Of a DNA stretch of 64,000 nucleotides, positions 4,896 through 47,227 are shown piece after piece. The stretch covers positions 1 through 64,000 of the IMG/VR virus record IMGVR_UViG_3300042559_002699; one strand, given 5' to 3'. Under the pieces are notes generated by a model. That model saw nothing but the letters and a program-made list of their open reading frames with translations, did no database searches and was not told the origin of the DNA. The DNA comes from a virus. Each line of letters starts with the position of its first letter. Within the stretch, counting starts at the first letter, position 1. A program made the translations under genes and the position numbers.

Positions 4896-7800
4896 TTATG
4901 CGAACTGAATAAATCCTCCTGCTGCGATTCCTCCGGTTCTAGTAACAGTGATTCTGTTAATGAACTTCTGGATTCCTCTTGCTGGCTCAAGGATAACGTC
5001 TATAATACCGATGTTTTGATCAATTACTGAAGGTGGATTGTTTGAAGCATCCATGATTACTTGGTAAGCATAGATTCCGCCTCCTGATCTAACTCCATCA
5101 AGGTAATTGTCTACCAATGTTTTAATTTCAAGTCTGATAGAATCTTCGTTGAAGTCAAACAGGTAGTTGGAAAGAATTTGTTCTACATCATTCTCAACAC
5201 TGATTAAAAGGTCCCTAACGTGCACTAGGCTGAACGCTGAGTTAACTGTTTGATATCCGGTTTGGTTACCGAAGATAACAACGCCTAGGCCTCTCTTTTT
5301 GATTATAGGGTTGATACCGAAAGGCTCCAGATAAGATCTATCTTCTAAAGTGAAGTCATATTCAAGTCCTACTAAGTTTGTTCCTGCAATAGTTCCTCTC
5401 TTTTGTCCTGCTACGATTGCGTAAGGTTCTCCGTTTGCAAATTTAGCAACGAAATTGTTGGAAACAAATGCTGCTGGTGGAACGTTCACGTTTCTGTTGT
5501 TCTCTCTTAAAGTAACATAAGGAGCATAGAATGCTGCGAATGAAGCTCCTAAAGCTTGAGTTGGTAAAGAGAAAGTATATGATGGGTTCAGAGCTAAGTT
5601 ACCTCCGTCTGCAATATATTGGGTTTGTAGTGCTGGATATGGATCAGCTGCAGTAGGTGCTGCTGTAAATCTAGGATCTACAGATTCTTGGAACTGAGCC
5701 ATTGAAGGTGCATTAATAAATGCAAGTGCTTGTCCTCTCATCATTGCCAATTTACTCAATTGGTATTTAGAGTTCGGAAGAATCACTCCACTAAATGTAT
5801 CTACGATGTACCTGAATGAAATAACGTCTTTAGTTGCAAGAGTTGCTGCAATGTTAGTGTTGTACATAACATCTAAAATTTCAGTTATTCTAGCATCTTG
5901 ACCATTAGGTCTGTGGAAGTCACTCAATTGAAATCCTTCAAGGTATGTGAAGTCAAATGAAGTTGTGAATTGAGGAATTGATTGGAATTTCTGTACTTGT
6001 AATCCTGTATTTCCACCTGAGTAGAAGTAGATAGGTCTTGCAGTAGTTACTGTTACTATACCAGAAAGAGATGTTGTAGCTACCGAGGTAACTTTGGTCA
6101 ACCTTTGTTGTCTGTTAGCATTTCCAACTTGGCAAAGATCTAAGTCAGTAGAAACTAATAGATCTCCAACTGAAACGGTGTAAAGGTTGCTGTCCAAACT
6201 AAAAGAAGTAACGCTAAGTTTTCCGTTTATCCCTCCTTGTACATCGATGTATTCGTTAATACTTCCGATGGAAGATATAATATCCAATTTATTAGTAGCT
6301 GGATATCCTGCGATTTGTCCTGTACTTACAGAAGCATAAGACGCTCCAAAATTAACCAAAGGTTCTAAACTATTTGAAGATCTGGAAATGTTGCTATATC
6401 CAAAAGCATAGGTGATAGCATATTGATCTCTGTCTACGTCTTGTTTATAAGCTAAATATTGAGGAGAAGATCCAGATGCATTATCATAGATGGTATCCCC
6501 GTCCTGAAGCTCTGCATACAGAACATTCTGATAGAAGGGAGTTGTGATTTGACCTAATAAAGCATTAGCGAATCCAGTAGGAGCTTGAGGGCCAGTAGCT
6601 GACGTTCCTCCTGGTCCTAGAGTAAATTGGATTCCTAAAGCATCGGAAGCACCGAATTGATAGGATGCTGTACCCCCTAAGATTGCTCCTGTTATTCCAT
6701 AAGGTGAATATGTTGATCCAGCAAAATCATCTGCTAAAGGTGTTACCGAGATTCCTAAAGCTCTATATTTAGAAATATCCAAAGGATGACTGAATGCAAT
6801 TCTTAAACTTCCACTTACTTGTGCAACATTTGCAACTTTTAATTTTACAAGATCCCCATTTGAGAATTGGTCGATTATAGAATCACTTCCAGTAAGTCCT
6901 GAAATTTGTCCTACTACGTAAGGATTTGAAGTAGAAGATGGGGTTAAGAAAGTTTGAAGATCTAATAGATCTGCTGCACTTAGTCCCGCAAAAGATCCTG
7001 AAGCTCCGGTTACTGCTGTTAAGAAGTGTAATCCTCCAACATAAGCATTAGGATCGTAAGTATTAAATCCTAGTACATTAACACCAGCAGTACCACCCCA
7101 AGTTGTTGTAGCAGCTACGGAAGGTAAACAATATAAAGTACCTACATTAATAGCTCCGGTTGCTCCAGTGATACCTGCGTTATCTTGAAGATTAGAATAG
7201 TTTCTTGTGTACAAATAATCTTGTAAAAGATTCTGATCATAACTTAAGAAATTAAGCTTTGCATCTTCAATATCTCTATCTCCAGAAAGTTCGTCGATTA
7301 AGTGATTACCCACTAAGTCAACCTTATAAGGATTAGTACAAAGATTTTCTAAAGCATCTTCATCAATCGCACAGAATAAACCGTTTGAAGGGGTATTGTT
7401 GTTAATAAGAGTTTGGATGTATTCATTGTTGCCGTTTAGGTTAACAAAGTCAATAATTAAACATCCGGTAGTAACTGATACAATTTCAACGTCTTGCTGA
7501 TTCAAGAAATTATTCATTTGGCTCTTAATGAATCCATTTGCAGTAAAGAAACTACTCCATTTTGGATCTTGAGAAAGAGCTGCATAATCTGTCCAATCCC
7601 CAGAAACTGCTATCACATCGATAAACCAGTCCGAGATATAGTCATAAGGGTTAACATAAGAAGGAACGTTTCCTGCACCATACCAATCAATAGCAAAAAT
7701 GTCATAACCTAATAAAGGAGGATTAGCATCTGTAGATTTTCTAACAATCACAGACATTGCATCTGAACCTAGATTTACTAGGTTGAAGATTCTTCCTTGG

Positions 7801-8267
7801 TCAATTATTGATCTAGTAGCTAGAAAATACTTTGTATCTGCATACCAGAATCTCTCTTTGTTATAATAAGAAGCATAAAGTCTCTCAGTAAGAACCCCGT
7901 TCTTCTGCTCTGTATCTACGGAATATCCAAAATAAGGAGTTTTATCTGCAGTTGGACTATCTACATCATTATTCAATCTTAATAAATTAAGAGCGAATAC
8001 TGGTCCTGCGTTTAAGCAGGTAAAGATAGATCTTTGAAAATAAGATCCTTTTGCTTCTAGAGTTTTATCTATGTCTCCAAAAATAGCTAACGCGGTAGTA
8101 ACGTCTGGAATATAGACTGGTGCGTTGAATGGTCCTTTATTAGAAAATCCAACTACCAGACGAATAGTCTGAGATGTTAAGATAACGTTTGCAGACGCAT
8201 CGAATTCCAGGGTATAAACTCCAGATGCTTTAAATTGGGATAAATCAAGTTTGACTTTTTGTGCCAT
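4896..8267 (-). CDS. Tail sheath protein, T4 gp18-like, unusually long
   Basis: 1123 residues, against about 660 for T4 gp18. The N-terminal ~110 residues (RLVVGFSNKGPFNAPVYI..., the acidic IFGDIDKTLE and CLNAGPVFALNLLRL) and the C-terminal ~200 residues (KKRGLGVVIFGNQTGYQT..., LISVENDVEQILSNYLFD, GIYAYQVIMDASNNPP, EPARGIQKFINRITV) match the conserved sheath core that interlocks and contracts. Roughly 400 extra residues in the middle, rich in Gly, Ser, Thr and Ala, form insertion domains expected on the outer tail surface. The first copy of the tube gene follows. Confidence 0.85.
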   Translation of the reverse strand: MAQKVKLDLSQFKASGVYTLEFDASANVILTSQTIRLVVGFSNKGPFNAPVYIPDVTTALAIFGDIDKTLEAKGSYFQRSIFTCLNAGPVFALNLLRLNNDVDSPTADKTPYFGYSVDTEQKNGVLTERLYASYYNKERFWYADTKYFLATRSIIDQGRIFNLVNLGSDAMSVIVRKSTDANPPLLGYDIFAIDWYGAGNVPSYVNPYDYISDWFIDVIAVSGDWTDYAALSQDPKWSSFFTANGFIKSQMNNFLNQQDVEIVSVTTGCLIIDFVNLNGNNEYIQTLINNNTPSNGLFCAIDEDALENLCTNPYKVDLVGNHLIDELSGDRDIEDAKLNFLSYDQNLLQDYLYTRNYSNLQDNAGITGATGAINVGTLYCLPSVAATTTWGGTAGVNVLGFNTYDPNAYVGGLHFLTAVTGASGSFAGLSAADLLDLQTFLTPSSTSNPYVVGQISGLTGSDSIIDQFSNGDLVKLKVANVAQVSGSLRIAFSHPLDISKYRALGISVTPLADDFAGSTYSPYGITGAILGGTASYQFGASDALGIQFTLGPGGTSATGPQAPTGFANALLGQITTPFYQNVLYAELQDGDTIYDNASGSSPQYLAYKQDVDRDQYAITYAFGYSNISRSSNSLEPLVNFGASYASVSTGQIAGYPATNKLDIISSIGSINEYIDVQGGINGKLSVTSFSLDSNLYTVSVGDLLVSTDLDLCQVGNANRQQRLTKVTSVATTSLSGIVTVTTARPIYFYSGGNTGLQVQKFQSIPQFTTSFDFTYLEGFQLSDFHRPNGQDARITEILDVMYNTNIAATLATKDVISFRYIVDTFSGVILPNSKYQLSKLAMMRGQALAFINAPSMAQFQESVDPRFTAAPTAADPYPALQTQYIADGGNLALNPSYTFSLPTQALGASFAAFYAPYVTLRENNRNVNVPPAAFVSNNFVAKFANGEPYAIVAGQKRGTIAGTNLVGLEYDFTLEDRSYLEPFGINPIIKKRGLGVVIFGNQTGYQTVNSAFSLVHVRDLLISVENDVEQILSNYLFDFNEDSIRLEIKTLVDNYLDGVRSGGGIYAYQVIMDASNNPPSVIDQNIGIIDVILEPARGIQKFINRITVTRTGGIAAGGFIQFA

Positions 8268-13583: not shown

Positions 13584-16500
13584 TTATCTTAGTAGGGTTA
13601 CCGTTCCTTCGTAATAATATACTTTACCATCATAAGCAGAAACCTTTACTCTCCAAACATAAACGTCTTGTTGTGAGTCTTCTCTTTTGTAGGTACCGTC
13701 CCAACCTTCATTTTTATCTTTAGTTTTCCATAGAATTTCTCCCCATCTATTAAACAACATAGCTTCGAATGTTTTTTCTCCGCTAACTGTAATGTAGAAT
13801 TTATTATTTCTATCAGGTCCTGTTCTTTCAGGACTAAACGCTGTTGGAGCAAAAACAATAACATCAGGACCTATAGTTAGTATATTTGAGGTTGAATCTA
13901 AACAAGTAACATCTTCATATGTAAAACTTGAAGTTAAGTTTACCCAATATCCTGAAGTGTCTGCTAGATAATTTTTAATTGGATTGATTTGAGTTGAAGT
14001 GTCTTCAGTATCAGGAAAGTCAAAAGACCATAAGTATTTAACACTATCTAATCCCCATCGAATCTGAGTTTGATTGATAAATTTAAATTTAGGAAATGCT
14101 ACTGTTGTAAAATTAGGTTCATTAATAAACTGAGCATCAGGTACAGGTAGTATTTTTATATAATCTTCTTTTGTTAATACACTCTGACAAACACCTCCAC
14201 CCCAATCATTTGTTACTATTAAAGTTACATCATACCAATTTCTATTAGCAGTATCATATTTAATATTAATTGGATTAGCTATGGTTGATATACCGTTATT
14301 ACCAAACTCCCATTCATATTTTATATTACTTAATGGTTTTCTAACTATTGAAGTAAAATCAACTCTACCTGGTTCACACTGAATTAATGGATTACCAATA
14401 AAATTAAATTGTGGTAACGGTTCTATAATTAATTGAATATCATCTTTAGCTGAAGGACAAACACCTTCTTCAACACTTTCCAAAGTAATTAAAACTCTAC
14501 CATTTCTAACATCTAATGATGTATCACCGATTCCATAATTATATAGTTGAATCAAATCATTACCTTGTCTTACAAATGATCCATCACCATTAGTTTTCCA
14601 AATAATATCTTTAACCCATTTTTTATCACCATTTAATATAAATTGTTTATCTTCACATTGTTGGTATGGATTAGAATTTAGTATATCAATCTGTGGTTGA
14701 GTTTGTATTAATATAAGATCTGCTGTAGTATCTGTACATTTGGTTATTGGGTTTGTATATTCAAATTTAACTCTATATTTTCCTTCATATTGTTTTGATT
14801 TAGGAGAAATACTTGGATCAAATTCATTTCCAACAACTCCTTCACCTGACCATTTACCTACATTTCCTCCGGGTTGTATACTTGTTAATTCTAATGTAGA
14901 TAAACTTGAACAAATAGTGTCAGGCAAATCTATTTTAACAATAGGTAAACCATTAACTACTACCTCTATACTATCCTCAACTAAACAACCACTTGAATTA
15001 TCAAATAATTTTATTAAATACTGTCCTGCTCCAGCAACTGATGGGTTGAATTTGTTTAATTTTATTGAGTTGTTTAAAGCATTTGATATAGTAGGATTTG
15101 ATTTATCTCTTGAATTTCTAAACTCAACAGTAGACCAAATTCCATCTACTAAAAACTTATCTGTGTTTCTATCTTTAGCATAGTTATTTAAATCTAACTC
15201 AGGAAAGTTAATACATTGACTAGGTATAAATTCAAATTGTATTTCAGGTAATTTAATAACGTCAATTATTACTGAATCACATGATTTACAACCTGAAACT
15301 GCATCTTGGAAACAATACTCTATTTCGTATTTACCTGTTTTTTGAGGTTCTTCAGGAGATCCGGGATCAAATAATGGCTTTGCAGGGATTGAATTATCCC
15401 AAAATATAATAAGATCGGGATTAACACCTGAACCATCAGGAACAGATAAACATCTAAATGTTTCTATACCACCAATTCTAGAGAACGGAGACACTATTAA
15501 AACGCTAAGATCTACTAAACTTTCTCCATATTGAGACCCTGATGTATTACCAGACCCATTTGTTGGGAGATAGGGTTTTTGACAAAATGATCTTTCTCTT
15601 AATTTAACTACAGGATTAGGATTTAATCTAATTGAATGACTACCTCTATTATAACATCCTTTTTTATCTCTATAATCATAACTAATTACATCAGTTAAAC
15701 CTGCTTTAGGTACTTGAGCGTTAGTAATGTAAATTGGAAAATTCCAAACAAAAGTATTTCTACCTACAGGACCACCTGTAATCCAACTTGGTGTTTTAGT
15801 TTGAAAGAATCTAATCGAGTCAGCAGGAATTGTTTTATTATTTGCAGTAGCAAAGTTAGCTAAATTTAAATTAATAGCACCATCTTGATAACATCTAGGT
15901 GGTAGTATTGTTGGAGTAAAGGCAGGTAATGGATTAACAGTTAAAGTAAATGTGTCTAAGTCTTCACAGATAACTCCTTTTTGATTAACTCTTAAAAGCA
16001 TTTCATATTTACGAGTCGCAAGTGTGGATATTCTTAAACTGAAAGCGCTATCAGTTGCCATAGTTGTACCAGAAATAATATCTCTCCAAGTAATTTGACG
16101 AGTGTATCCCAATGGCTTACGTTTAGATGTAACTTTTAAGGTATCAAAAATACAAATTTCTCTATCCCCTCCAGAAAGAGCTATAACTGTGTCATTGACA
16201 AATACCTCTATTGTATCAGTATCAAAACATTTGTAAACACTATCTAATACCTTAACTGAATACTTTTGAGAAGGGAATATTTTTTCGTATAAATTTACTA
16301 CAAGGGTACTTGATCCAATAATCGTAACTCCATTCGAACTCCATTCATACATTAGAGTATCTGCATTTTGAGCATCTAATGTAGCAAAATCATAAGTACA
16401 TATTCTTCGGTCAGGACCAAGGTCAACGATAGGATTTTTAATGTATTTAATCAAAATGGTATCAGAGTCTACACATTTATTTTTATCGGTAAGTCTAAGT

Positions 16501-18303: not shown

Positions 18304-18693
18304 CTATATCACTTCCGTGTGAGTTCTCCCGTCGTTCCAATACCCTATGTCTCCATACCAGATGAAAATTTCCTCCCCTGGAAAAATGTCCCTGTGTGCA
18401 ATAAATTCAAAAGTTTTGTTTTCAATATTGGATCTCCAATAAGAATTTGCATCATTTCTATGGTTATACAACCCACCAAAACCGAAAGAGAAAACTTGTT
18501 CTTCCCATTCATTTCCCTGTGGCCAGTTGAATCTATAGTCTATTAAAAGAGAACTGGATTCTCCTTTATTGATGGGGAGTGTGATAACAGGACAAACCTC
18601 GAATATTTCTCCTTCCTTTATATGCTCTTTGGCAAAAACCCCCCAACCATGGATCGGACTTTTATCTATGTAAATTTTTGGATTGTATATCAT
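18304..18693 (-). CDS. Small SET-domain protein (putative protein lysine methyltransferase)
   Basis: 129 residues, the size of a minimal viral SET domain. Motifs: GWGVFAKEHIKEGE at 16-29 (SAM-binding start), GLYNHRNDANSYW at 74-86 (the NHxxxxN active-site knot) and FPGEEIFIWYGD at 104-115 (GEE...Y). SET enzymes move a methyl group from SAM to lysine; the target is unknown and could be a virion, host or phage regulatory protein. No pre- or post-SET zinc clusters are present. It is followed by the giant secreted protein gene and preceded by glycan island A. Confidence 0.8.
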   Translation of the reverse strand: MIYNPKIYIDKSPIHGWGVFAKEHIKEGEIFEVCPVITLPINKGESSSLLIDYRFNWPQGNEWEEQVFSFGFGGLYNHRNDANSYWRSNIENKTFEFIAHRDIFPGEEIFIWYGDIGYWNDGRTHTEVI

Positions 18694-18721: not shown

Positions 18722-19702
18722 CTAATGTCCTAAGTAAATTAAATTTCTATCAATTTCTTTATAGATAGTAGAGTAATCATACTCACCATAAGTGTCAATT
18801 AATTTTATATTTTTTATTGTATTTGAATCTACTTCAAACTCAAAAATTTCATTTTCACTTAATTCTCTCTCATAAAGAACTTCATCTAAATTGAATGTTA
18901 ATTTTTGAGGTTCTTTGATGTCATAAATATAAAATCTAAGGTTAGAGGATATTGGTTTTTCAATATTAACATCGTCTTCAGAAATCCAACAGGTTGTTGG
19001 TGTATTTTTACTAATAAATAATTTATATTTTGGGTTCATTGAGTAATCAAAAAATCCCCTGTCACCCCAATAATAAATTTTATCTCTTACTGGTGTTTTT
19101 GAAATTTGGATTGGGAATAATTTAGTCCATAATAACGCTTGTCCTTCGGCAACACCATCCAGCTTCAAATAATCATCAAGATTTATTACATCAACAATTT
19201 TACCCATTATTTCCCTATCAAATATCATAAAATGCAGAGTACAATCCCACCAATCATCATTATTATTAGGATTAATTCTTGGATGTACTAAGTTAGTTAT
19301 ATTAGAATTTATAGTATCAATAACGTATTCATCAATTTCCAAATCATATATTATGTGATAAAAATAATCGTAATCATAACTTAATGCAATTTGACTCATT
19401 TTTTTTATTTGGTATAAACCAGCCCATCCATATTCCGCAACATTTCTGTGCATGGTCATCCAACCATCTTTAGAAAAATTTGTTTCCCAAAAAGTAAATC
19501 CACGAACCGGCCAATTTAGCAAAGGATTTTCTTTTGTAAAAAAAACAAAATCAGATAGTTCTATTATGTCTTCAGGTAATGTGATTGGACTTATTACTAA
19601 CGTATCTAAATCTAACCCCTTTAATATTTTTATATTGTCGTATAAAATATCAATTTTTTCCTGAGTATCGCAATATGAACTTATTAAAACTATTTTTCTC
19701 AT
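18722..19702 (-). CDS. Putative glycosyltransferase, phage WcaK/GT-A-like family (paralog of 22335-23324)
   Basis: 326 residues. It opens with a beta strand, KIVLISSYC, and has a candidate metal-binding YDLEID motif near residue 130 preceded by YDYDYFYHI, as in GT-A enzymes. The start (LISSYCDTQEKIDIL) resembles that of the gene at 22335-23324, which has YDCEIN at the same place, so the two look like diverged copies. Donor and acceptor cannot be told. It ends an operon-like run in which genes overlap by 4 bp (ATGA). Confidence 0.55.
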   Translation of the reverse strand: MRKIVLISSYCDTQEKIDILYDNIKILKGLDLDTLVISPITLPEDIIELSDFVFFTKENPLLNWPVRGFTFWETNFSKDGWMTMHRNVAEYGWAGLYQIKKMSQIALSYDYDYFYHIIYDLEIDEYVIDTINSNITNLVHPRINPNNNDDWWDCTLHFMIFDREIMGKIVDVINLDDYLKLDGVAEGQALLWTKLFPIQISKTPVRDKIYYWGDRGFFDYSMNPKYKLFISKNTPTTCWISEDDVNIEKPISSNLRFYIYDIKEPQKLTFNLDEVLYERELSENEIFEFEVDSNTIKNIKLIDTYGEYDYSTIYKEIDRNLIYLGH

Positions 19703-20274
19703 ACTTCTACAACAAAACTTGAATCAGGGAATGATGTTATCATATAATCGTAACAAAAAATATCATTAACAGCTTCATATACACCGATGTTTTCATCAAA
19801 TCTAAAATCATGTCCTCCGATATATCCTCCCTTTTTAACCTTTGGTAACCAAGTTAAAATATCCTGCCTTACACTTTCATAGTCATGTGCCGCATCAATA
19901 TAAACAAAATCTAAAGAGTTATCATCAAATTGTTTTGCCGCTTCGACACTACTATTTTTAATTTTTACTATATTGTTATAATTTTTAGACATCTTATCAA
20001 AAGAATACTCCGCAAATTCTACTTTTTGTTTATCTGTTATTTCCCAATATGGGTCCCATAAGTCAACACAATATATTTTTTTACAGTGTAGTGAGAATAA
20101 TTCACTACTAACCCCAGCAAAAGAACCTATTTCAACCATGGTCATATTATCATCAATAAATTTATCTATCAGCATTTTTAAACCTTTCAATTGATTATAT
20201 CTAGGTTTAAAATCACTATAAAACATTCTTGGTGTAAGTAGTAATTCTTCAATTTTTTCTTCTTTATTTTTCAT
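19699..20274 (-). CDS. Class I SAM-dependent methyltransferase
   Basis: 191 residues of the Methyltransf_24 type. Motif I is MVEIGSFAGVSS, the acidic end of strand 2 is IYCVDLWDPYW, and the strand-4 motif is FVYIDAAHDYESV, followed by GGYIGGHDF. In glycan clusters this family often methylates sugar hydroxyls or processes sugar-linked groups. Overlaps both neighbours by 4 bp, so it is translated with the glycosyltransferase genes. Substrate unknown. Confidence 0.8.
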   Translation of the reverse strand: MKNKEEKIEELLLTPRMFYSDFKPRYNQLKGLKMLIDKFIDDNMTMVEIGSFAGVSSELFSLHCKKIYCVDLWDPYWEITDKQKVEFAEYSFDKMSKNYNNIVKIKNSSVEAAKQFDDNSLDFVYIDAAHDYESVRQDILTWLPKVKKGGYIGGHDFRFDENIGVYEAVNDIFCYDYMITSFPDSSFVVEV

Positions 20275-21791
20275 AACATATTTTTAAATCTATATTCTTG
20301 TTTATTTTCTTCAATTTCATCAGATGTCATTTTAGTTAAAATTATACAATTTTTGAAAAAAGTTAGTGACGAGATTGATTTATGATTTTTCATATTACTA
20401 AATTCCGAGTTTATTTTGTGCGGTAAAGACTGAAAATAGTCCACAATATTATAGTCACCTATTTGGTAATCGTAAATCATATTTCTTGGATTCCAATAAT
20501 TACACTCAATATCCTCAATAATATAAATCCCACCATTTTCTAGCATGTTTTCAAAAAGATAATTAAATGTTTCTATTTGGTGTTGCGGTACATGACTTCC
20601 GTCATCAATTATTATATCACACTTACCAATTATTTCGACCATTCTATTTAGATCTTCTTCTTTGGTTTGGTCCCCTTTATAAACTATGCCTCTATCTGTT
20701 TCAATTTCTTCATTAATGTCCATAGAAAATATCATCCCGCTTGGAAAATATTCTTTCCACATGTTAAATGATGCATAATCAGAACCACATCCAACTTCAA
20801 AAAGTTTTATCGGTGAGTTTTTTAATCGATCTAAAAATAAAGGATAAATCCTATCATATCTATGATGTACTATTTTATCCGTTTGGTGTTTTATCCCTAA
20901 ATCATACATTATATTATTCTGTATATTATTTTTATCACACAATACAATATCTATTAAATCATCTATCGCTTGTTTATATTTGCTATAAGGTCTACAACAA
21001 TTTACGTCAATATAATAACCATCTCTAAGTTTTTTTTCATCGTAAATACCATATTTTTTTTGGAATTCAATTTCACCATCCCACTCTAATTTAACAGGGA
21101 AATTTCCTCTATCAATTCTTCTATCAGCAATCCAAGGAGAAATGTATCCTCTTTTAAGTTTATGAACTTCAATACCGTGATTTTTATTATTTACACAATC
21201 CGCAAAATAAAACTCATCAATCATCCACATAAAATGATATCCTGGTTTATAATTTCCGTGACGATTAGTAAACTCTTCAAAAGTACAATTAGTGTCTAAA
21301 ATTTTGTCAAATACTCTACCTTTAGCCGCATTATATGGATAGTTATACATTTCTTGGGTAAAAGGAAATGGTTGATTTTTAAACAGCTCAATCGCTTCTG
21401 GTCTATTTAAATCATACGCATCACTTGAATAAATAACTAAACTATCATTATCATATTTTTCAATTTGATTAACGAAATAATCTTTATTAATCATTAGCAT
21501 ATCTAAATCGCAAGTAAGACACACCTCATCTGGAAAATATTTCGTGCCATACATTCGTACAATACAAGCAAGTAATCCAGAATTTATTACATTACCATTT
21601 TGAGTGTTTTTTACTTTTTTAATTTTCTTAACTAAACCGTTCCCATCATTATAGAAGTCGCTATCCTCATCACAAATATAAAATAGAACAGGTTCTATGT
21701 TTAATAACTCTTTACAAATCCTAGCTTGTATAGGCCAAAATTCTAAAAAGTAAGAATCATCAACACCAAAAATTGCTTTATTAATTTTCAT
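20271..21791 (-). CDS. Fusion: GT-A-like glycosyltransferase plus SAM methyltransferase
   Basis: 506 residues. The first ~240 residues look like a GT-A domain with CLTCDLDMLMINKDYF (DLD metal motif near residue 95) and a later WMIDEFYFAD. From about residue 295 a class I methyltransferase begins: KLFEVGCGSDYASF (motif I), GMIFSMDINEE, CDIIIDDGSHVPQHQ and GGIYIIEDIE, close to the cephalosporin-hydroxylase/macrocin O-methyltransferase-like group. The join suggests that a sugar is transferred and then, or elsewhere on the chain, methylated. Overlaps the preceding gene by 11 bp and the next by 4 bp. Confidence 0.7.
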   Translation of the reverse strand: MKINKAIFGVDDSYFLEFWPIQARICKELLNIEPVLFYICDEDSDFYNDGNGLVKKIKKVKNTQNGNVINSGLLACIVRMYGTKYFPDEVCLTCDLDMLMINKDYFVNQIEKYDNDSLVIYSSDAYDLNRPEAIELFKNQPFPFTQEMYNYPYNAAKGRVFDKILDTNCTFEEFTNRHGNYKPGYHFMWMIDEFYFADCVNNKNHGIEVHKLKRGYISPWIADRRIDRGNFPVKLEWDGEIEFQKKYGIYDEKKLRDGYYIDVNCCRPYSKYKQAIDDLIDIVLCDKNNIQNNIMYDLGIKHQTDKIVHHRYDRIYPLFLDRLKNSPIKLFEVGCGSDYASFNMWKEYFPSGMIFSMDINEEIETDRGIVYKGDQTKEEDLNRMVEIIGKCDIIIDDGSHVPQHQIETFNYLFENMLENGGIYIIEDIECNYWNPRNMIYDYQIGDYNIVDYFQSLPHKINSEFSNMKNHKSISSLTFFKNCIILTKMTSDEIEENKQEYRFKNML

Positions 21792-22332
21792 AAAATTTAT
21801 TTATAAATTCATCTATATTATCTGACCACATAGTCATCGAGTTATCTCTAATTTTTTGTTCGTCCCAGTTCCACCAAGCAATAGTTAATAACTTTTCAAT
21901 TTGTTCCTCAGTAAACCTGGATTTAACTATCTTAGCCGGATTGCCGGCAACAATTGCATACGGGGGAACATCCTTAGTTACCACGGATCCAGCTCCAACG
22001 ATAGATCCGTTAGATATTTTAACCCCGGACATTATAGTAGACTTTGCTCCGATCCAAACATCATTTTGAATTATAATATCACCCTTACATGAGGGATGTC
22101 CCATTTGCATGTGCATTTGAGCAATTTCGTCCGTAACAGGTCCTAACAATTGGGAAGATGTCGTTACCCAATCTGGTCTATGGTTTGCATGCAGGAAAAA
22201 GTTACAATCTCTACCAATTGAATTATATCGGCCTAATCTGATTTGATATTGGTCACTCCACGAAATTATATTCACATTTCGATCAAAATAAGTTCCTCTG
22301 TCAGCATGCCATAAATGTATATTTTCAATCAT
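21781..22332 (-). CDS. Hexapeptide-repeat O-acetyltransferase, CatB-like
   Basis: 183 residues with the left-handed beta-helix pattern: GRYNSIGRDCNFF, IIIQNDVWIGAKSTIMSG, VKISNGSIVGAGSVVTKDVPPYAIVAGNPAKIV, then the helical tail IEKLLTIAWWNWDEQKI typical of CatB/LbH xenobiotic or polysaccharide acetyltransferases. HANHRPD contains the probable catalytic His. Acts as a trimer on acetyl-CoA; in this setting it probably acetylates a sugar. Confidence 0.88.
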   Translation of the reverse strand: MIENIHLWHADRGTYFDRNVNIISWSDQYQIRLGRYNSIGRDCNFFLHANHRPDWVTTSSQLLGPVTDEIAQMHMQMGHPSCKGDIIIQNDVWIGAKSTIMSGVKISNGSIVGAGSVVTKDVPPYAIVAGNPAKIVKSRFTEEQIEKLLTIAWWNWDEQKIRDNSMTMWSDNIDEFINKFYEN

Positions 22333-22334
22333 TA

Positions 22335-23324
22335 TTAATCTTCTACTACTCTATAGCTCATTTTTTTAAATAATTCCCTGTCTGATTCTGAATTCAGGTA
22401 AAAAGTATCTCTAATTATTTCATTTTCTAGAACTATAATAGAATTAATTTCTTCTATTTTTCCCAGAGACCTAATTGTCCAGCAATCAATATAAACTTTA
22501 GGGATGTAAACTAAATTGGTATTATTTATTATTATCTTATATTCTATGCCTTCTTTGTTTGATGTGTTCCAGGAAATAAAATCGACTGTTTCTGTTAAGT
22601 AGTCATAATAAGGAACTGACCAAGGATTTTTATTAATCGATTGGCTATTAATTATTCCAAATCTATTTCCTTTTTTTTTCAAAACGTCTCTGTTCTTGAC
22701 AACAACATTACCACTTTCATCTATTAGTTGTTTTAAAAGACCCTCTGGAGACTTAGAGATAGCATGTCTTATTAAATCTTTAATTTTTTCTTCATTAAGA
22801 TTAACAAGTAATTCGTGGATTTTTGGAATAAAGTAAGATTGAAAACTTCCAAACATTACAGGGGATATTCTTTCTTGAATATCCATATAGACAACACTAT
22901 TATTCTCATTTAACAATCTGCTATTTTCTAGAAATTCACTAATTTCATTTATCTCACAATCATATTCTATATGATGGACTTTTGAGAATCCTAAATTTTT
23001 GGCATTTGAAAATCCCAGTATCATTAGCCTCCAGATTGCTAAATGTGTATTTTTTTTGCTAAGGAAAGAAGATTGAATTCTTCTTCCCCCGCTAGGGATA
23101 AACCAAGGTTGATTTAGGAGATCCCAATCGGTCAGGATTTCATTCTTTTTATCATAAAAGCAGAATTCAACTTTTTTTTGAATGTCTAAAGAAATTGGGG
23201 TATGACTTACGACCATAACCTCAAAATTACTTTTGTATTTTTCTAAAGAATAAACTAAATTTCTCAGTATATTTTCTCTATGGTCATCGGGACAATATGA
23301 GGTTATTAATATTAGATCTTTCAT
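22335..23324 (-). CDS. Putative glycosyltransferase (paralog of 18722-19702)
   Basis: 329 residues. The start KDLILITSYCPDDHRENIL and a YDCEINEISEF segment (candidate D-x-x metal motif) resemble the gene at 18722-19702; beyond this the pair have drifted far. Glycosyltransferase is the most likely role given the two neighbouring acetyltransferases and the DxD-like motif, but no CAZy family is evident. Overlaps the PglD-like gene by 4 bp. Confidence 0.5.
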   Translation of the reverse strand: MKDLILITSYCPDDHRENILRNLVYSLEKYKSNFEVMVVSHTPISLDIQKKVEFCFYDKKNEILTDWDLLNQPWFIPSGGRRIQSSFLSKKNTHLAIWRLMILGFSNAKNLGFSKVHHIEYDCEINEISEFLENSRLLNENNSVVYMDIQERISPVMFGSFQSYFIPKIHELLVNLNEEKIKDLIRHAISKSPEGLLKQLIDESGNVVVKNRDVLKKKGNRFGIINSQSINKNPWSVPYYDYLTETVDFISWNTSNKEGIEYKIIINNTNLVYIPKVYIDCWTIRSLGKIEEINSIIVLENEIIRDTFYLNSESDRELFKKMSYRVVED

Positions 23325-23899
23325 TTTAAAATTTTTCTAGCAGGAGATCCAGCATAAATACCAGGTTCTTTTATATCTCTTATAACTACACTATTTGCAC
23401 CTATTTTGATATTGTGTGCTAAGTATTTTTTTTCTATTATGGAGGAATTTGTTCCTAAATAAACCATATTTCCTATATGAACGTTTCCTGAAACTATAGA
23501 TCCGGGCATTGCACTGAAATAATTTCCTATAATACAGTCGTGGCCAATGTGGTTACCCCTATTTAAGATTGAATGACTTCCAACTTTAATATTTGTAGTT
23601 AGAATAGAATAAGCACCGATAAAGCTACCTTCTCCGATTTCTATTTTCCCCATCAGTAAAGCAGTTGGATGTATCCAGGTAAAATATTTAGTTTCTTTTG
23701 GAAGTTTCTGTATAATATTATGTCTGTCTATCGGGTCTGCAACTGCAACCATCAAAGAGTATTCTTTCGGATCAAATTCAGATAATGGTTTTGTTCCGGT
23801 GATCAAATATTTGTCGTCTACAAAACAAGTAATATTTAACCCCATTTGTGCCATCACTTCTTTGGCATGTCCACCATATCCGACTAATGCTTTTTTCAT
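23321..23899 (-). CDS. PglD/NeuD-type sugar N/O-acyltransferase
   Basis: 192 residues with the two-part PglD/NeuD layout: an N-terminal Rossmann-like part (KKALVGYGGHAKEVM..., then FVDD) and a C-terminal hexapeptide beta-helix (HPTALLMGKIEIGEGSFIG, NRGNHIGHDCIIGNYF with the catalytic His in the GHDC stretch, and KIGANSVVIRDIKEPGIYAGSPAR). The family transfers acetyl to an amino-sugar nucleotide. The neighbour downstream in transcription is a glycosyltransferase and upstream is an aminotransferase-like gene, which fits. Confidence 0.87.
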   Translation of the reverse strand: MKKALVGYGGHAKEVMAQMGLNITCFVDDKYLITGTKPLSEFDPKEYSLMVAVADPIDRHNIIQKLPKETKYFTWIHPTALLMGKIEIGEGSFIGAYSILTTNIKVGSHSILNRGNHIGHDCIIGNYFSAMPGSIVSGNVHIGNMVYLGTNSSIIEKKYLAHNIKIGANSVVIRDIKEPGIYAGSPARKILK

Positions 23900-24540
23900 T
23901 GTTTATAAATTTCAAATTTTGATAAATCAGGATATGGTAGTTCTAGATCTTCGTTGTATTTTTTTGACCCGTCCATGTTATAAAACTGAGTCATCATCAA
24001 AAGTCCTCTTGCTGAGAGTTCCGGCATCATGTAAAAATTCCATCCTAGCATATCAAAGTTATCATCGTGATATGAGCATTCTCTTCTCCCACTAAATCTA
24101 GCTCTTTTGAACCATAACATTGCTTGATAGTCATCGGTTAATATTGCTCCTCCCTTGCTCAGCTTCAGTGTTTTATATGGTCCAGTAAAGGATAAGCACA
24201 TATGGGTTTTTGGGATATACATATCAGCGCTAAATCTTAAAGCGGAATCCCAGACGTTGCTTGGAAAAAGCTGATAAGCTCCTTTTATGGTATCCCCTTC
24301 CACTGGGGTAAAATTAACCTTCAGACCTGCGTGAATTATTTCACACGGAACGGAAGGATAAGTTCTAGCAGGGCAATCGACAGTTCCAGCCTTAATACTT
24401 TTCTTTATATTTTTTTCGTAGTAAAGGGCTAAAAATAAAGCATTGCTCATATTATCTAATGCAACTGCATAAGGCGATCCGGTATAATCGCATAGTGATT
24501 TTTCAAAATCCTCCGTAATTTTATGTACTCCTTGTGCCAT
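23896..24540 (-). CDS. Shortened DegT/DnrJ/EryC1-type sugar aminotransferase homolog
   Basis: 214 residues against about 370 for the family. The fold type I core is recognisable: YAVALDNMSNALFLALY near the start, CPARTYPSVPCEIIHAG, then SFTGPYKTLKLSKGGAILTDD, where the Lys in KTLKLSKGG is the likely PLP lysine, followed by RARFSGRR and a MMPELSARG segment matching the MsdlqAa.G pattern. The C-terminal small domain is missing, so it may be inactive, a half-length enzyme or a regulator. No frameshift is visible; it ends cleanly and overlaps the next start by 4 bp. Confidence 0.7.
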   Translation of the reverse strand: MAQGVHKITEDFEKSLCDYTGSPYAVALDNMSNALFLALYYEKNIKKSIKAGTVDCPARTYPSVPCEIIHAGLKVNFTPVEGDTIKGAYQLFPSNVWDSALRFSADMYIPKTHMCLSFTGPYKTLKLSKGGAILTDDYQAMLWFKRARFSGRRECSYHDDNFDMLGWNFYMMPELSARGLLMMTQFYNMDGSKKYNEDLELPYPDLSKFEIYKQ

Positions 24541-24542: not shown

Positions 24543-25265
24543 TTATCTATTGTCAATGTGAATTATAATTTCGGTATAATATTCAATGAAGTGTTCATTC
24601 CACAAATCCCAGGTAATGTCAATCCCGTCTACAGAAAAAATTATAACTTTATTGAAGTTTGGTAATATATGATCTCTAAAATTTCTAAATTTAGTCTTAA
24701 GTTCATCTGTACTAAGATGCCATTCTCCAACTATTTTTTTTACGTTCTCTTTTATATATGGAAGATTTCCACTAGTGAAAATATCATATTCCCCTCCTTC
24801 GCAGTCGGTTTTAAGGAAATCTATTTTATCAATTCCAAATAAGTCAATAAAAGATTTAAATGTAATAGATTCCATTTCGGATTCTCCACCAAAGAGCATA
24901 TCAGATTCCGATATCCCATTCTTATCAGAAATTCCTTTAAAGATAGGAGTTACCTGATATCCCATGGTATTTTTAACTAACACTTTAAATTCTCTGTAGC
25001 TTGGTTCAAAACAGAATACATGCTTTGGATTTTTGTGTAAAATAGACCTGGTGAAAGGACCTAGGCTAGCTCCTACATCAAGAACAATATCATTTTCCTC
25101 CACTTCAAAAAATAATTCATATATGCTTTCCCCCTCAAAAATTTCTTTAATGATGGAATCCTTATGATAAAGTCCCATTGGTTTGTGTGTCCCATCTGAC
25201 ATGATTTGATAAGTTTCACAAGGCTCGTCCATCCAACCCCAATCAAAATTACTAATGTCTATCAT
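24543..25265 (-). CDS. FkbM-family SAM methyltransferase
   Basis: 240 residues. IVLDVGASLGPFTRSIL is motif I, HVFCFEPSYREFKVL the SAM ribose strand, and IDKIDFLKTDCEGGEYDIF the FkbM hallmark (D-x-E-G-x-E). These enzymes O-methylate sugars or polyketide-linked hydroxyls and are common in capsule and glycan clusters. It overlaps the bifunctional glycosyltransferase gene before it by 4 bp. Confidence 0.88.
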   Translation of the reverse strand: MIDISNFDWGWMDEPCETYQIMSDGTHKPMGLYHKDSIIKEIFEGESIYELFFEVEENDIVLDVGASLGPFTRSILHKNPKHVFCFEPSYREFKVLVKNTMGYQVTPIFKGISDKNGISESDMLFGGESEMESITFKSFIDLFGIDKIDFLKTDCEGGEYDIFTSGNLPYIKENVKKIVGEWHLSTDELKTKFRNFRDHILPNFNKVIIFSVDGIDITWDLWNEHFIEYYTEIIIHIDNR

Positions 25266-27577
25266 TTTTTTATCTCTGGTAATAAATTAAATACTGTTAT
25301 TGGTGATATAGATTTTGAGCAAATGTGTTGTTTATCTGTTCCCTTCCAGACTGGACACCAATCCCAGTCTCCAGTATCAAAAATAAAATTTGTATTTTCC
25401 CAACAAGAATTACAAGCATTTGAATTTTGTATTCTAGTTATATTAGTTTTAAATTCGTGATCCTTAGCAGTAAATCCACTAATCATAACTGTGTGTTTTT
25501 TTAGCGACCAATTAATCCAGGAAAGACCTGAACTCAGTCCGATCAAATATTCGGAGTGATACAGTATATTAATAGATTCTTCCAAATTTTTGCCATGTAT
25601 ACAACGGGCTCCTTTAATAAAATATGGTTTTTGAGTTAAACAAATTACCTGAATCCCAGTTTCAGTTAGCATCTTTGTTAGAATTTCCCATCCTTCTCTA
25701 GTCCATTCTTTACATCCTGCGGTAGACTCCGGGGCAATTACAACATATTTTTCAGTCATAGGATTTTTTCTCGGAGTAAAATTAATTCCATAATTTCTTT
25801 CCTCAAATTCTAATCCCAAAATATCAGAAGATGTCTTTTGGAGAGGCTGTGAATTTAATGGATTTGGGTATGAATTAAAATCGTCCCATCTACCTCCATT
25901 AGATCTAAACCATCCAATTCTATAAACAACATAACAATTTGTGTTACTTCCGGGGGATATAAATTCAAAATTAGAGTATTCTTTAACCCCCTTAAACCAG
26001 TCATTATGAAATGTAGATAATATAATCTTGCATTTGTGTTTTTTTTCGAAGTCTACTACATAAGGAGCCCATGCAATTGTATCCCCAATAGATTTAGACT
26101 CAAAAGAAATTAAAACTCTTTTACCCTCAAGTCCAAAAGTGTCAACAACTTTACCGTTGATCTTAATTACCCAATCTGTGTAATATTTTCTTGAACAAAC
26201 ACACCACATATTATTAGTTATTGTTTCCGAATGAATGATCTTCTCGGTTTTAGAATCAATAAACTCTATATGATACGAAGACTCAAAATCTCCAGTAATC
26301 TCAACCTTTGGTCCATCTAAATAAGAAATATGAATTGAATTAGTGTCTTTGTTCTTATTGTATCCGGGCTGATTTACTTTTACGACAAAATCTTCTATTG
26401 TTGATTTTCCTATTTTAGCAATCTCTTCCCAAGAAAAATTTCTTCTTAACTCGACACTTTCTTCTACAGCTTTACTTTTGTGAAATTCATAATTTTCATA
26501 GGCATCTCTCATAACTCTAGAAAGATCAATAAAATCCGGTTCATAGTAATTACCTGGGAGATCACCCATACTGTATCTGCCGTAGGTGTTTTGATTTGCA
26601 GGCTTTTCCCCTATTATTTTAACAGGTAATCCTTTACCTTCTGCAAATTCCATCTGAGCGCAACACTCAGAATAGATAGAAGGTGTTCCACAGGCCATGG
26701 CCTCAATCAAAGGTAAATTCCATCCTTCAGATCTAGCACACGAAAGAAAGACATGTCCGGTTTTAAGGTATTTTATGTAATCCTCTCTTTTTGGAAAGTG
26801 TATTATTTTAATTCTAGGATCCAAAAGTCCATAGTTTTTTAGTCTTTCCTCTGTGGTTTTAAATCCATCCATTTCTTCTCCCCACATGTTATCAATTGAG
26901 ACAACAATATCTATGGGTTCCTCCGGTGAAAATGTTTTTAGAAAAGTTTCTATAATTTCTTTAGTAGATTTTCTATAGTCCCATCTTCCCATTAAAAGAA
27001 ATTTAAATCTTTTATCCTTGTACTCGTCAAGCAAATCAACAGATTCTGGATAAAAAGTATCAACATCCACTCCTTCAGGAACAACTTTAACTTGGTCTGG
27101 ATTTGCTCCTTGATCTATAGTACAATCTCTTTGCCATTTACTAGGAACCCATATCTCATCAAATAATATTAATTTTTTAAAAAATTCTTCAGTCTGTCTG
27201 GTTGATTCCCAAACATTATATGCTATTTTGGGTCCTGAATATTTTTCGTAATATAAATAATGATTTGATTCATTTAGAACTATATTAAGATCGGCTCCAA
27301 ATTCTTTTTCTGAAGAAGGATATATTTTAAAATCCTCCATTCGACCTTCCCCTACCCACAATCTTTGACTGTATAATAAATTTTTATCTAAGTCATCTAG
27401 ATAATCTTCTTCGTCATGCGGGGTTTCGCTTAGACCTTTCCAAGAATCACCTACAGTAAAATTTCTAAATTTGATCGGAAAATATTTAGAAAGAGATCTA
27501 AAAAAATCTCGTGTATGGTGATTGTACCCGGTATTTCCTATGTACGACCCATGTGCATAAATTTTTATTTTACTCAC
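25262..27577 (-). CDS. Bifunctional GT4 glycosyltransferase fused to a TibC/BAHT-like protein O-glycosyltransferase
   Basis: 771 residues from a GTG start. Residues ~1-400 form a GT-B enzyme of the GT4 type: VWESTRQTEEFF, VPSKWQRD, VPEGVDVDTFYP, FLLMGRWDYRK and SCARSEGWNLPLIEAMACGTP. Residues ~480-771 resemble bacterial autotransporter heptosyltransferases (BAHT, TibC group): VLISFESKSIGDTIAWAPY, VIAPESTAGCKEW, YHSEYLIGLSSGLSWINW and a C-terminal finger with Cys722, Cys725, Cys741 and Cys753 (CNSC...WCP...C). In TibC-type enzymes four such Cys hold Fe(III) and the enzyme puts heptose on Ser of surface adhesins. A protein-glycosylation role is therefore likely, though sugar and target are unknown. 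Confidence 0.82.
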   Translation of the reverse strand: MSKIKIYAHGSYIGNTGYNHHTRDFFRSLSKYFPIKFRNFTVGDSWKGLSETPHDEEDYLDDLDKNLLYSQRLWVGEGRMEDFKIYPSSEKEFGADLNIVLNESNHYLYYEKYSGPKIAYNVWESTRQTEEFFKKLILFDEIWVPSKWQRDCTIDQGANPDQVKVVPEGVDVDTFYPESVDLLDEYKDKRFKFLLMGRWDYRKSTKEIIETFLKTFSPEEPIDIVVSIDNMWGEEMDGFKTTEERLKNYGLLDPRIKIIHFPKREDYIKYLKTGHVFLSCARSEGWNLPLIEAMACGTPSIYSECCAQMEFAEGKGLPVKIIGEKPANQNTYGRYSMGDLPGNYYEPDFIDLSRVMRDAYENYEFHKSKAVEESVELRRNFSWEEIAKIGKSTIEDFVVKVNQPGYNKNKDTNSIHISYLDGPKVEITGDFESSYHIEFIDSKTEKIIHSETITNNMWCVCSRKYYTDWVIKINGKVVDTFGLEGKRVLISFESKSIGDTIAWAPYVVDFEKKHKCKIILSTFHNDWFKGVKEYSNFEFISPGSNTNCYVVYRIGWFRSNGGRWDDFNSYPNPLNSQPLQKTSSDILGLEFEERNYGINFTPRKNPMTEKYVVIAPESTAGCKEWTREGWEILTKMLTETGIQVICLTQKPYFIKGARCIHGKNLEESINILYHSEYLIGLSSGLSWINWSLKKHTVMISGFTAKDHEFKTNITRIQNSNACNSCWENTNFIFDTGDWDWCPVWKGTDKQHICSKSISPITVFNLLPEIKK

Positions 27578-27596: not shown

Positions 27597-27872
27597 TTAA
27601 GATCTTGGAGTGTAGATACCTGTAGTGAAGTCTAAATCACCATCACCATATTTCGCTATGATAGAATCAACAATTTTAGATTCCTGTCTACTCAATTCTT
27701 CTGTTTCTAGATATTCCGTATCTATATCCATTTTAATCAAATTCAACTCGGTCTCTGTAAAGTGTCTTTTGATGTTAAGTCTTCCGATTTTTTCAACGTT
27801 AGATCTTATTTTTTCTCTTAGATCTTTAATTGAATCTAATTCTTCTTGAGATAATTTTATTGGTTCTGACAT
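27597..27872 (-). CDS. Small coiled-coil protein, unknown
   Basis: 91 residues, mostly charged helix (LSQEELDSIKDLREKIRSNVEKIGRL) with a short polar tail ending YTPRS. No family recognised. It stands between a terminator (27923-27947) and the GT4/BAHT gene, 19 bp from the latter, so it may head the island A transcript. Confidence 0.6.
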   Translation of the reverse strand: MSEPIKLSQEELDSIKDLREKIRSNVEKIGRLNIKRHFTETELNLIKMDIDTEYLETEELSRQESKIVDSIIAKYGDGDLDFTTGIYTPRS

Positions 27873-27967: not shown

Positions 27968-28330
27968 TTACCAGCCTGTTATCTGGGTTCTTTTCCAAGT
28001 ATTTGTTCCAACACAAACGTAAAGATAGTTTGTATCCAGAGCTAATTCTCCGGTTGTTCCGGTAGCACCCGACGATCCAGGAGCTAGAGAAGAAACAGAA
28101 GGTCCAGTTGATCCGGTTACACCAGTTGAACCAGTTGGTCCAGTTGAACCAGTTGGTCCAGTTGGACCTGTTCCTCCAAAATAAGTTAATTGATCCCATG
28201 TAGAGGATCCGTCACCAATTTTAGCAAATCCGGTATCAAGTTCATAGCCAAACTCTCCTTGTAAAAGGATAGGATTGTTACTATCCCAGTTTGTAGATGT
28301 ATCTCTTCTAAATTGTATTCTATAAGCCAT
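27968..28330 (-). CDS. Short tail fibre-like protein with collagen-like repeat
   Basis: 120 residues. The first ~50 residues ([24 protein letters not shown] followed by a [12 protein letters not shown] segment) are the common phage fibre head domain seen in Mtd-like and many tail fibre proteins. Residues 55-78 are eight Gly-x-y triplets, mostly GPT or GST, i.e. a collagen-like trimer stem. A short C-terminal beta region ends [12 protein letters not shown]...TWKRTQI. Small for a full fibre, so it may be a tip or adaptor. The Thr-rich triplets are possible O-glycan sites. Confidence 0.75.
28097..28168 (-). repeat. Tandem Gly-x-Thr codon repeat (collagen-like)
   Basis: Eight 9-bp units coding Gly-Pro-Thr, Gly-Ser-Thr or Gly-Val-Thr inside the fibre gene; units such as GGTCCAGTT recur on the plus strand. 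Such tracts can gain or lose units by slippage and so vary fibre length. Confidence 0.8.
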
Positions 28331-28665: not shown

Positions 28666-29793
28666 TTAAGTATATATCCCGGTAAAATAAAAATCTACCC
28701 CAGATACGCTGGATTCAAAAGTAATTGTTGATCCGGAAACATTGGTAGCTATCACATTACCCGCTAAAGAAGAACAAGAAACAGTGATGAATAAATTTAT
28801 CCCTAAAACCTTATTGGAAATATCCAAAGGTGTCATATCTATGTAAGTTATGTAAGGAGCAGTTACCGGAATTACCCCGGCTCCTGTGAACATCTGAAGG
28901 GAAGCAAATTGAGCATTCACAGAATCTTCACTAATGTAATATCCCGAGATTTGATTTAAAGTTATTCCTGTTGAGCTAGCTGGAACAGAAACAGTAGGTA
29001 AGTTTGAAGTTGGGCTAGGAAGGCCAGGGGTACTAGAATTAGCAGGAGTTGTAAATAAACTTGAACTTCCAATTACAGTATCCCCTATAGAAAGTTTAAG
29101 TTTAATTCCAGCTTGCATTAGATTTCCTCTAAATCTCTCAGTTGCAATGTCCTTCTGAGGATAATAAGTTTCAACTTGAATGGAAAAATTGGTTTCGATC
29201 CACTTTTGTGTATTTGAATAGGTAAATTCTAATTGCTTGTCATTTTGATATTGCTCAGGAAATCCAACTTGAACCGGAACCCTCATTCCTCCAAACTCAA
29301 CATTAAAACTATAAACTTTATAGAAAGTTTGAATTACAGATTGGAAAATTTTAAATGTATCTAATAAAGTATCTGCTCTCAGTTTTATATCAAAGGTCAT
29401 ACTAAGAGGAATAGAAGACGTATAAGCAGAAAATGCTTTCATCTGTCCCTCTACCGTTTCAATGTTATAAGTTGCCCTTACAAATCCATTTGTTATTGAA
29501 GCTGTATCTATATTAACCCCAGTAAAAGTTACTACTCCTCTAGGAATAATATCATAGTTACCCTCTGCAAAAGGAGAATTTCCGTCACAATCTAAATAGT
29601 CTAAATAGAAGTCCTGTAAAAAAGATTCGTCTCCAGACATTGAATAGAAAAAAGGAATGTAAACTTCCAATATTTCTTGTTGTTCATTAATCTGAGTGTA
29701 GGTTACTTTTTCATTTAAGCTTCTGAGAAGTCCAACGATAATTCCCCTTAGGAATACCTCGTCTATATTATATTTTTCTAAAAATCCCGACAT
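28666..29793 (-). CDS. Tail completion/sheath stabiliser protein, T4 gp15-like
   Basis: 375 residues. The N-terminal two thirds read like the gp15 family that caps the tail and stabilises the sheath: FLRGIIVGLLRSLNEKVTY, EVYIPFFYSMSGD, IPRGVVTFTGVNID, IPLSMTFDIKLRADTLLDTFKIFQSVIQTF, then VPVQVGFPE and FSIQVETYYPQKD. This order (strand, PR.., iP..l.f.l.i.....d....i.eqi...f) is that of gp15. The last ~120 residues are a Ser/Thr/Pro linker and an added beta domain. It is 15 kb from the gp14-like gene with the glycan island between them. Confidence 0.55.
   Translation of the reverse strand: MSGFLEKYNIDEVFLRGIIVGLLRSLNEKVTYTQINEQQEILEVYIPFFYSMSGDESFLQDFYLDYLDCDGNSPFAEGNYDIIPRGVVTFTGVNIDTASITNGFVRATYNIETVEGQMKAFSAYTSSIPLSMTFDIKLRADTLLDTFKIFQSVIQTFYKVYSFNVEFGGMRVPVQVGFPEQYQNDKQLEFTYSNTQKWIETNFSIQVETYYPQKDIATERFRGNLMQAGIKLKLSIGDTVIGSSSLFTTPANSSTPGLPSPTSNLPTVSVPASSTGITLNQISGYYISEDSVNAQFASLQMFTGAGVIPVTAPYITYIDMTPLDISNKVLGINLFITVSCSSLAGNVIATNVSGSTITFESSVSGVDFYFTGIYT
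28670..28678 (-). promoter_or_regulatory. Class B promoter motif inside the end of the gp15-like gene
   Basis: Minus-strand GATATATAC, 18 nt before the GTG start of the 104-residue gene, overlapping the last codons of the gp15-like gene. Confidence 0.4.
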
Positions 29794-45324: not shown

Positions 45325-45383
45325 TTTTTTGAATTTGTATAGATTATCTTAGATAAAATTTCAGGAATAATTTCAGGAAATTA

Positions 45384-47155: not shown

Positions 47156-47220
47156 AAGATCCTATTTTTCCTTAGTAAATTACTTGATCTTTGTCCGTTG
47201 TATATTTCTGTTACTCCCAT
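47152..47220 (-). CDS. Possible 22-residue ORF
   Basis: ATG at 47220 opens 22 codons (start GVTEIYNGQRSSN) ending in a TGA that overlaps the next ATG. The 72-bp gap it fills is otherwise empty. It may be the worn C-terminal end of a lost gene, a leader peptide coupling translation, or chance. Confidence 0.2.
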   Translation of the reverse strand: MGVTEIYNGQRSSNLLRKNRIL

Positions 47221-47227
47221 TATATTA

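Follow-up and report, generated by a model that had tools for sequence, protein, structure and literature searches.

A phage gene for a GT4–TibC fusion glycosyltransferase and its possible link to collagen-like virion fibres

The closest described relatives of the enzyme reported here are TibC, which acts on autotransporters, and AAH, both of the BAHT family (TIGR04414). In TibC, a beta-hairpin thumb builds a dodecamer, and point mutants of the thumb are dimers that are inactive on TibA. Arg286 contacts N1 of the adenine and is the basis of the ADP preference, and the finger binds the protein substrate. AAH, which carries Ser294, takes both heptose stereoisomers (PMC4358343). Here we describe a virus-encoded relative of these enzymes. 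Its gene lies in the virus record IMGVR_UViG_3300042559_002699 (G000, 89,451 bases), the first 64,000 nucleotides of which form the window analysed here, and its product joins a TibC-like half to a glycosyltransferase half of the GT4 type.

The gene (25262..27577, GTG start) was listed without a strand in the first-pass annotation. It is on the minus strand, as are all genes and domains of the window given below, and the open reading frame (ORF) encodes 771 amino acids (aa). The product is almost certainly a GT4–TibC fusion glycosyltransferase. The N-terminal GT4 (GT-B) domain covers residues 1-400 (26378..27577), as placed by PF00534, phrog_2170 and VIA-align, and includes the pair E284-x7-E292. 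The C-terminal TibC-like domain, with an N-terminal beta-barrel and a GT-B core, covers residues 411-771 (25265..26347), as placed by TIGR04414 and an overlay on 4rb4_B. Residues 411-765 matched TIGR04414 (hepto_Aah_TibC) with 231.8 bits (E 1.2e-68, curated cut-off 200), the single match to this profile in a profile search of the record, and the C-terminal half matched the solved TibC chains 4rap/4rb4 with E 8e-44. The GT4 half scored 40.3 bits against PF00534 (cut-off 26.4) and also matched phrog_2170. A plain GT9 heptosyltransferase (WaaC type) lacking the finger, the opposing identity named in the first-pass annotation, is out on scores, with 29.3 bits for PF01075 against 231.8 for TIGR04414; the lipopolysaccharide (LPS) heptosyltransferase model TIGR02193 gave 24 bits, with a cut-off of 185.3.

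Residues were mapped by sequence alignment to TibC, using the TibC numbering and facts of PMC4358343. The four cysteines and both motifs that had been noticed at first are present and have TibC equivalents. Cys722, 725, 741 and 753 each have their own TibC counterpart (Cys339, 342, 358 and 370, in that order) and share its spacing C-x2-C-x15-C-x11-C, and the segment Cys722-Cys753 (25319..25414) is a candidate iron finger. ESTAGCKEW (617-625) aligns with TibC QSTCQAKYW, and GLSSGLSWINW (680-690) with GLPSGLSWLAW. The TibC active-site residues D110, T226, K230 and W305 are kept as D499, T619, K623 and W687. In the same alignment, TibC Arg286 is replaced by S668, Pro300 by S682 (matching AAH Ser294) and Phe368 by H751, and the TibC thumb (264-272, including Phe265 and Val266) is missing its counterpart, the site falling between residues 655 and 656 (25610..25615). 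With the thumb gone, a twelve-membered ring of the TibC type is not expected to form via the known contact. With thumb and Arg286 both lost, the enzyme is a variant of the TibC type, and its donor may be something other than ADP-heptose.

Autotransporter strand-loop-strand repeats were rejected as the target. The repeat profile TIGR04415 had 0 matches at E<=1 in the window phage's own record, and in 23 related records, which are possibly fragments, none was over the cut-off and one match was weak (14 bits). The initial assignment to the BAHT enzymes therefore stands in part: the TIGR04414 score over cut-off, the fold, the finger and the catalytic residues agree with it, whereas the thumb, Arg286 and the TIGR04415 targets do not. 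Since two defining BAHT features were tested and found absent, we do not classify the enzyme as a strict BAHT; it probably works like one.

An AlphaFold2 model was built from alignment A1 (56 rows), and overlays were made by VIA-align, with Foldseek concordant. The mean predicted local distance difference test score (pLDDT) was 87.7, and the blocks spanning 721-760 had pLDDT 75-83. The overlay on TibC that had been proposed as a check gave a clear superposition, model residues 413-771 matching 4rb4_B chain residues 22-390 with Z 36.5 and a root-mean-square deviation of 2.1 A over 346 aligned residues. Residues 4-399 superposed on 3oy2_A, a chlorella virus glycosyltransferase, with Z 34.0, and E284 and E292 were conserved in every A1 row covering them (42 and 41 rows). 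The four cysteines are predicted to cluster, on the strength of overlay and residue alignment rather than of distances. Profile, TibC match and fold overlay agree with the original picture of a phage-encoded GT4 enzyme fused to a TibC-like enzyme with a four-cysteine finger.

The same fusion, which the first-pass annotation suggested looking for elsewhere, was found in many other phages. Scanning viral contigs returned 78 loci, and together with Microcystis phage Mel-JY01 (L080) these included 47 complete ORFs with both halves, of which 44 are 754-777 aa in length and the other three longer. L080 and three copies of the window phage (L002-L004) are among the 47, and some others are near-identical across samples; 44 complete ORFs lie outside the window phage's own copies. 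The TibC-like half stands alone in 13 complete ORFs of 387-401 aa. The fusion group was aligned as 49 distinct rows; L058-L062 fall short of the GT4 half and were assigned to it by identity, L050 stops before the TibC active site, and L079 (broken frame) was left out. Of the 48 covered rows, all keep the catalytic Asp, Thr, Lys and Trp and none keeps Arg286; the thumb region was short in the rows shown. In the stand-alone relatives L063-L074, Arg286 was kept in 8 of 8 distinct rows, and the thumb-region insert was longer. With L080 counted, 45 of the 49 covered rows have all four cysteines and the other four (L044, L045, L046 and L048) have none, a pattern of all-or-none loss that would be expected for a metal site. 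These four finger-less fusions have another gene context, with no sheath nearby.

Mel-JY01 shared 45% identity with the window enzyme over 96% of its length. Among the matches listed (60 of 123), Mel-JY01 and three huge uncultured phage records were the only named phages covering the TibC-like half; the remaining named-phage matches in this list covered the GT4 half only. A megablast search of 20-32 kb against named phages gave no match. The possibility that the whole fusion came from bacteria was considered and rejected: the first bacterial genome scan was empty, and the A1 scan gave nine loci, of which only L083 matched along the entire fusion. L083 has sheath and tube genes and is therefore a phage contig. 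Stand-alone TibC-like genes of 432 aa were found in Methylobacter genomes (L085, 5965-7263; L086, 5869-7167), with 46% identity to the phage stand-alones.

Collagen-like runs flank 11 of the 59 distinct TibC-like loci and are of the GSS/GTS type in nine. Among tail-tube relatives, arrays were present in 8 of 27 TibC-positive and 1 of 24 TibC-negative records (one-sided Fisher p 0.019, to be taken as a guide only). Only one TibC-negative record, G156, has an array, and its sequence stops 2 kb beyond it. G100 shares identical 50-mers of the G156 array and has a TibC-like gene 5.6 kb past it, so G156 may be incomplete; it was still counted against the association.

A second set of records was chosen only by the pattern (G-[ST]-[ST])n, and all 39 records of at least 40 kb among the matches listed were searched. 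TIGR04414 was found in 18 of these 39 (17 over cut-off), mostly in frames of 675-823 or 1379-1527 codons. In the control sets it was found in 1 of 24 G-P-X records and in 0 of 25 G-[DEKN]-X records (p 2.6e-4 and 1.7e-5, again as guides only); the G-P-X pattern is its own reverse complement, some of its matches are perhaps not real collagen frames, and 4 of its 24 records are of 35-39 kb, the others being of at least 40 kb. L178 and L251 matched both array patterns and were counted in the Ser/Thr set only, and L361 in the G-P-X set only. Split by length, TibC-like genes were present in 11 of 15 array versus 0 of 8 control records of at least 85 kb, and in 7 of 24 versus 1 of 37 at 40-85 kb. Split by the phrog_23 sheath, for which 80 of the 88 records were taken and 8 short controls left out, the counts were 8 of 15 array versus 0 of 3 control records with a sheath and 10 of 24 versus 1 of 38 without a detected one, and the contrast holds. 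Of the 18 positives, seven were located, and in five of these the array lay 0.3, 2.8, 3.8, 5.6 or 6.6 kb from the TibC-like gene. The strict Ser/Thr pattern had 2 matches in Mel-JY01 and 1,153 in LR756501.1 (L542), a 735-kb uncultured phage that also has a TibC-like enzyme.

In the window phage, a candidate acceptor is a small fibre protein of 120 residues (27968..28330), with an Mtd_N domain (PF18454, 59.8 bits) and eight collagen triplets. The gene ends about 0.4 kb before the start of the fusion gene, and the triplets, of the GPT/GST type, lie at 28097-28168, 0.5 kb upstream (PF01391 26.5 bits, under the cut-off of 27.2). The collagen-like PTG triplets of BclA are O-glycosylated on Thr (PMC6222408), which makes this fibre a fair but small acceptor candidate. 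A tail fibre had been put forward as a target from the start, and the co-occurrence with collagen-like Ser/Thr fibres lends it indirect support.

It seems likely that the fusion enzyme acts on a protein; that this protein is a collagen-like virion fibre we regard as an even call. As a whole explanation, a two-domain phage protein O-glycosyltransferase that glycosylates a collagen-like virion fibre stands, in our estimate, marginally short of even chances. In the cytoplasm, the TibC-like half would bind a long protein of repetitive sequence and attach the first sugar to many of its Ser and Thr side chains, a step modelled on TibC acting on autotransporters. The GT4 half would add a second sugar, and a two-step sugar made by the two halves is plausible. 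Trimming of the glycan would then fall to the operon-like sugar island around the gene, which encodes an FkbM methyltransferase as well as acetyl-, amino- and methyltransferases. More tentatively, the acceptor would be a virion fibre with Ser/Thr-rich collagen-like Gly-X-Y repeats, possibly the GPT/GST fibre in the window phage, and the sugar coat might protect or retune it. The co-occurrence of TibC-like genes with long Ser/Thr-rich collagen-like fibres suggests, short of proof, that phages with such fibres sugar-coat them.

Several observations weigh against this proposal. The window phage has only the eight GPT/GST-type triplets, a pattern search having found no strict Ser/Thr-only array in it, and TibC modified Ser, not Thr, in the peptides tested (PMC4358343). 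Array and TibC-like gene were 25 and 63 kb apart in two of the seven located positives, and 21 of the 39 array records, which are fragments, had no TibC-like gene. The records are phylogenetically non-independent and their habitats unmatched, which is why the p values are guides only. The nearest constant neighbour of the gene in relatives is the tail sheath and no fibre. The AlphaFold2 model has a predicted template modelling score of only 0.58, so the relative placing of the two halves is not fixed by it.

The position next to the sheath raises the question of a different acceptor, the sheath itself or another tail protein encoded nearby. The usual order in relatives is TibC-like gene, 83-residue protein, sheath and tail tube. 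The sheath follows within one to four genes downstream in 38 of the 48 distinct loci of the fusion group, and the count for other TibC-like loci is 8 of 10. Sheath length is 567-889 aa among the complete sheaths of the tube set and 1123 aa in the window, and glycosylated capsid and tail-tube proteins have been reported from mycobacteriophages (Freeman 2023, via PMC12619734). However, the region before gp18 (gp17-gp18) is a known hypervariable insertion spot (PMC3037559, citing Millard 2009). Among 43 tube-anchored loci whose sequence reaches at least 3 kb upstream of a complete sheath, 27 have a TibC-like gene there (15 GT4-fused), which is no general rate since the loci were chosen for closeness to a fusion carrier, and other genes occupy the spot in the remaining 16. 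A case for the sheath from synteny alone is weakened by these 16 loci. In addition, ten TibC-positive array records among the matches listed have no detected phrog_23 sheath, and in the window phage the sheath (4896..8267; phrog_34521, phrog_23) is 17 kb from the fusion gene, so that adjacency is seen in relatives only. We consider a sheath or adjacent tail protein as acceptor quite unlikely. The best profile match of the window sheath covers its last ~330 residues, and the N-terminal part is large and extra or divergent. The window fusion gene itself lies after a weak gp15-like gene and the small fibre gene.

Somewhat better placed, though still unlikely, is an enzyme that alters the host surface (LPS or capsule) and thereby blocks superinfection. 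In pelagimyophages, glycosyltransferases and tail fibres share a variable host recognition cluster and were read as O-chain modifiers (PMC7029224). Amino-, acetyl- and methyltransferases of the sort usual for surface sugars are encoded in the window island, and there is another sugar island at 43-54 kb. Against this, the C-terminal half groups with protein O-glycosyltransferases and not with LPS heptosyltransferases, it has kept the finger, which in TibC binds the protein substrate (PMC4358343), and the co-occurrence with Ser/Thr collagen arrays would be left unexplained. The TibC-like half could also be a non-enzymatic binding module for the GT4 half, given that Arg286 and the thumb are lost group-wide and that 4 of 49 rows are without all four cysteines, but the invariance of the catalytic Asp, Thr, Lys and Trp in all 48 covered rows makes this very unlikely. 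The giant protein at 13584-18257, of the type IX secretion system (T9SS) type, had been suggested as the target. It is encoded on the same strand 7 kb downstream and has PKD and CHU_C domains, but it is a PKD-type chain, with neither a repeated beta-helix nor a collagen array, and has no homologue in any locus around related fusion genes. It was dropped as partner for this reason; no specific support for it was found, and we hold it to be highly improbable. The protein itself (1557 aa) lies in the structural region and has a signal-peptide-like start, PKD domains and a C-terminus of the CHU_C/T9SS type B sorting kind, for which PF13585 scored over and TIGR04131 under the cut-off. These features are indicative of a Bacteroidota host. 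The only matches to it in named phages were two huge uncultured records, both partial.

The fusion gene is embedded in a sugar island. The start codon of the FkbM-type methyltransferase gene (24543..25265, PF05050 36.9 bits) overlaps its stop by 4 nt (ATGA). Further along are a DegT-like aminotransferase relative of 214 aa (23896..24540), which matches profile positions 26-98 of 360 only and is also kept in L007-L009 and L052; a NeuD/PglD-like sugar acetyltransferase (23321..23899, TIGR03570 157.4 bits, just under the cut-off of 160.8); a 329-aa protein with no Pfam or PDB match (22335..23324); a hexapeptide acyltransferase identified by profile matches (21781..22332); a 506-aa protein whose C-terminal part is methyltransferase-like (20271..21791, weak Methyltransf_31); a methyltransferase with a Methyltransf_24 profile match (19699..20274); and an unassigned 326-aa protein (18722..19702). 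A SET-domain protein of 129 aa (18304-18693, PF00856 59.3 bits) lies between the island and the giant secreted protein. On the other side, a 91-aa coiled-coil-like protein (27597..27872) is a homologue of the ~83-aa protein beside the fusion gene in relatives, and the T4 gp15-like tail completion protein (28666..29793, PF16724 17.5 bits, under cut-off) marks the island edge.

Some relatives carry island genes within the enzyme itself. In Mel-JY01 the fusion protein has 1226 residues, with homologues of two island genes between the halves; this middle region matched the product of 20271-21791 with 45% identity over 211 residues and that of 22335-23324 with 26.5% over 166. L054 has an FkbM domain between the GT4 and TibC halves, and L056 a PIG-L deacetylase domain after the fusion. 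The fusion of island genes into the enzymes of relatives supports one pathway on one glycan. The second sugar island (43343-53973) encodes RmlD-like, RfbH-like and PseC-like (the latter two aminotransferases), GT17, GT11 and PseB-like dehydratase proteins, as well as an acyltransferase, a 2OG-Fe oxygenase, GT2/GT92, DUF3431 and DUF5672 proteins. Its PseB- and PseC-like genes would make a UDP-amino sugar a possible donor.

In its widest form, the proposal would be that aquatic phages have a dedicated machine, a thumb-less TibC relative joined to a GT4 enzyme, that hyperglycosylates their own collagen-like Ser/Thr fibres inside the infected cell. On this view the G-[ST]-[ST] repeats would serve as scaffolds for the sugar, and the donor would be other than ADP-heptose, possibly a UDP-amino sugar from phage PseB/PseC-like genes, with methyltransferase, transferase-like or deacetylase modules sometimes added. 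We regard this as possible rather than probable. We know of no explanation for the composition of the Ser/Thr-rich collagen-like proteins of environmental phages. If the proposal is true, it would give the long proteins of this type an enzyme and a function, and would extend protein O-glycosylation, as a trait of virions, far past the cases reported from mycobacteriophages. The natural variants of TibC without thumb and Arg286 also make the role of the dodecamer and the specificity for ADP-heptose directly testable.

Among known systems, phage GT4 glycosyltransferases (phrog_2170; Streptomyces and Rhodococcus phages) resemble the GT4 half (22-26% identity over residues ~97-405) but, among the matches listed, none reaches the TibC-like half. 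TibC and AAH resemble the window enzyme in fold, N-terminal barrel, catalytic Asp/Thr/Lys/Trp and identical cysteine spacing. The window enzyme is unlike them in being GT4-fused and phage-borne, with the thumb deleted, Arg286 gone and no autotransporter repeats; at TibC Pro300, its S682 differs from TibC and agrees with AAH. The Mimivirus L230 collagen hydroxylase/glycosyltransferase is an example of a virus glycosylating its own collagen, though the sugar is hydroxylysine-linked and the enzyme is not known to be related in fold; nor are the enzymes modifying BclA known to be related to the window enzyme. The Thr-glycosylated PTG triplets of the exosporium glycoprotein BclA are comparable to the window GPT triplets, but by analogy only, BclA being a spore protein (PMC6222408). 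The pelagimyophage host recognition cluster is similar in having sugar genes by tail fibres in a variable structural region of T4-like aquatic phages; its glycosyltransferases are, unlike the window enzyme, mainly GT8 and LPS-directed, and a text search for "heptosyl" had no match (PMC7029224). A literature search, with subscription journals mostly outside it, found no phage TibC and no glycosylated phage collagen.

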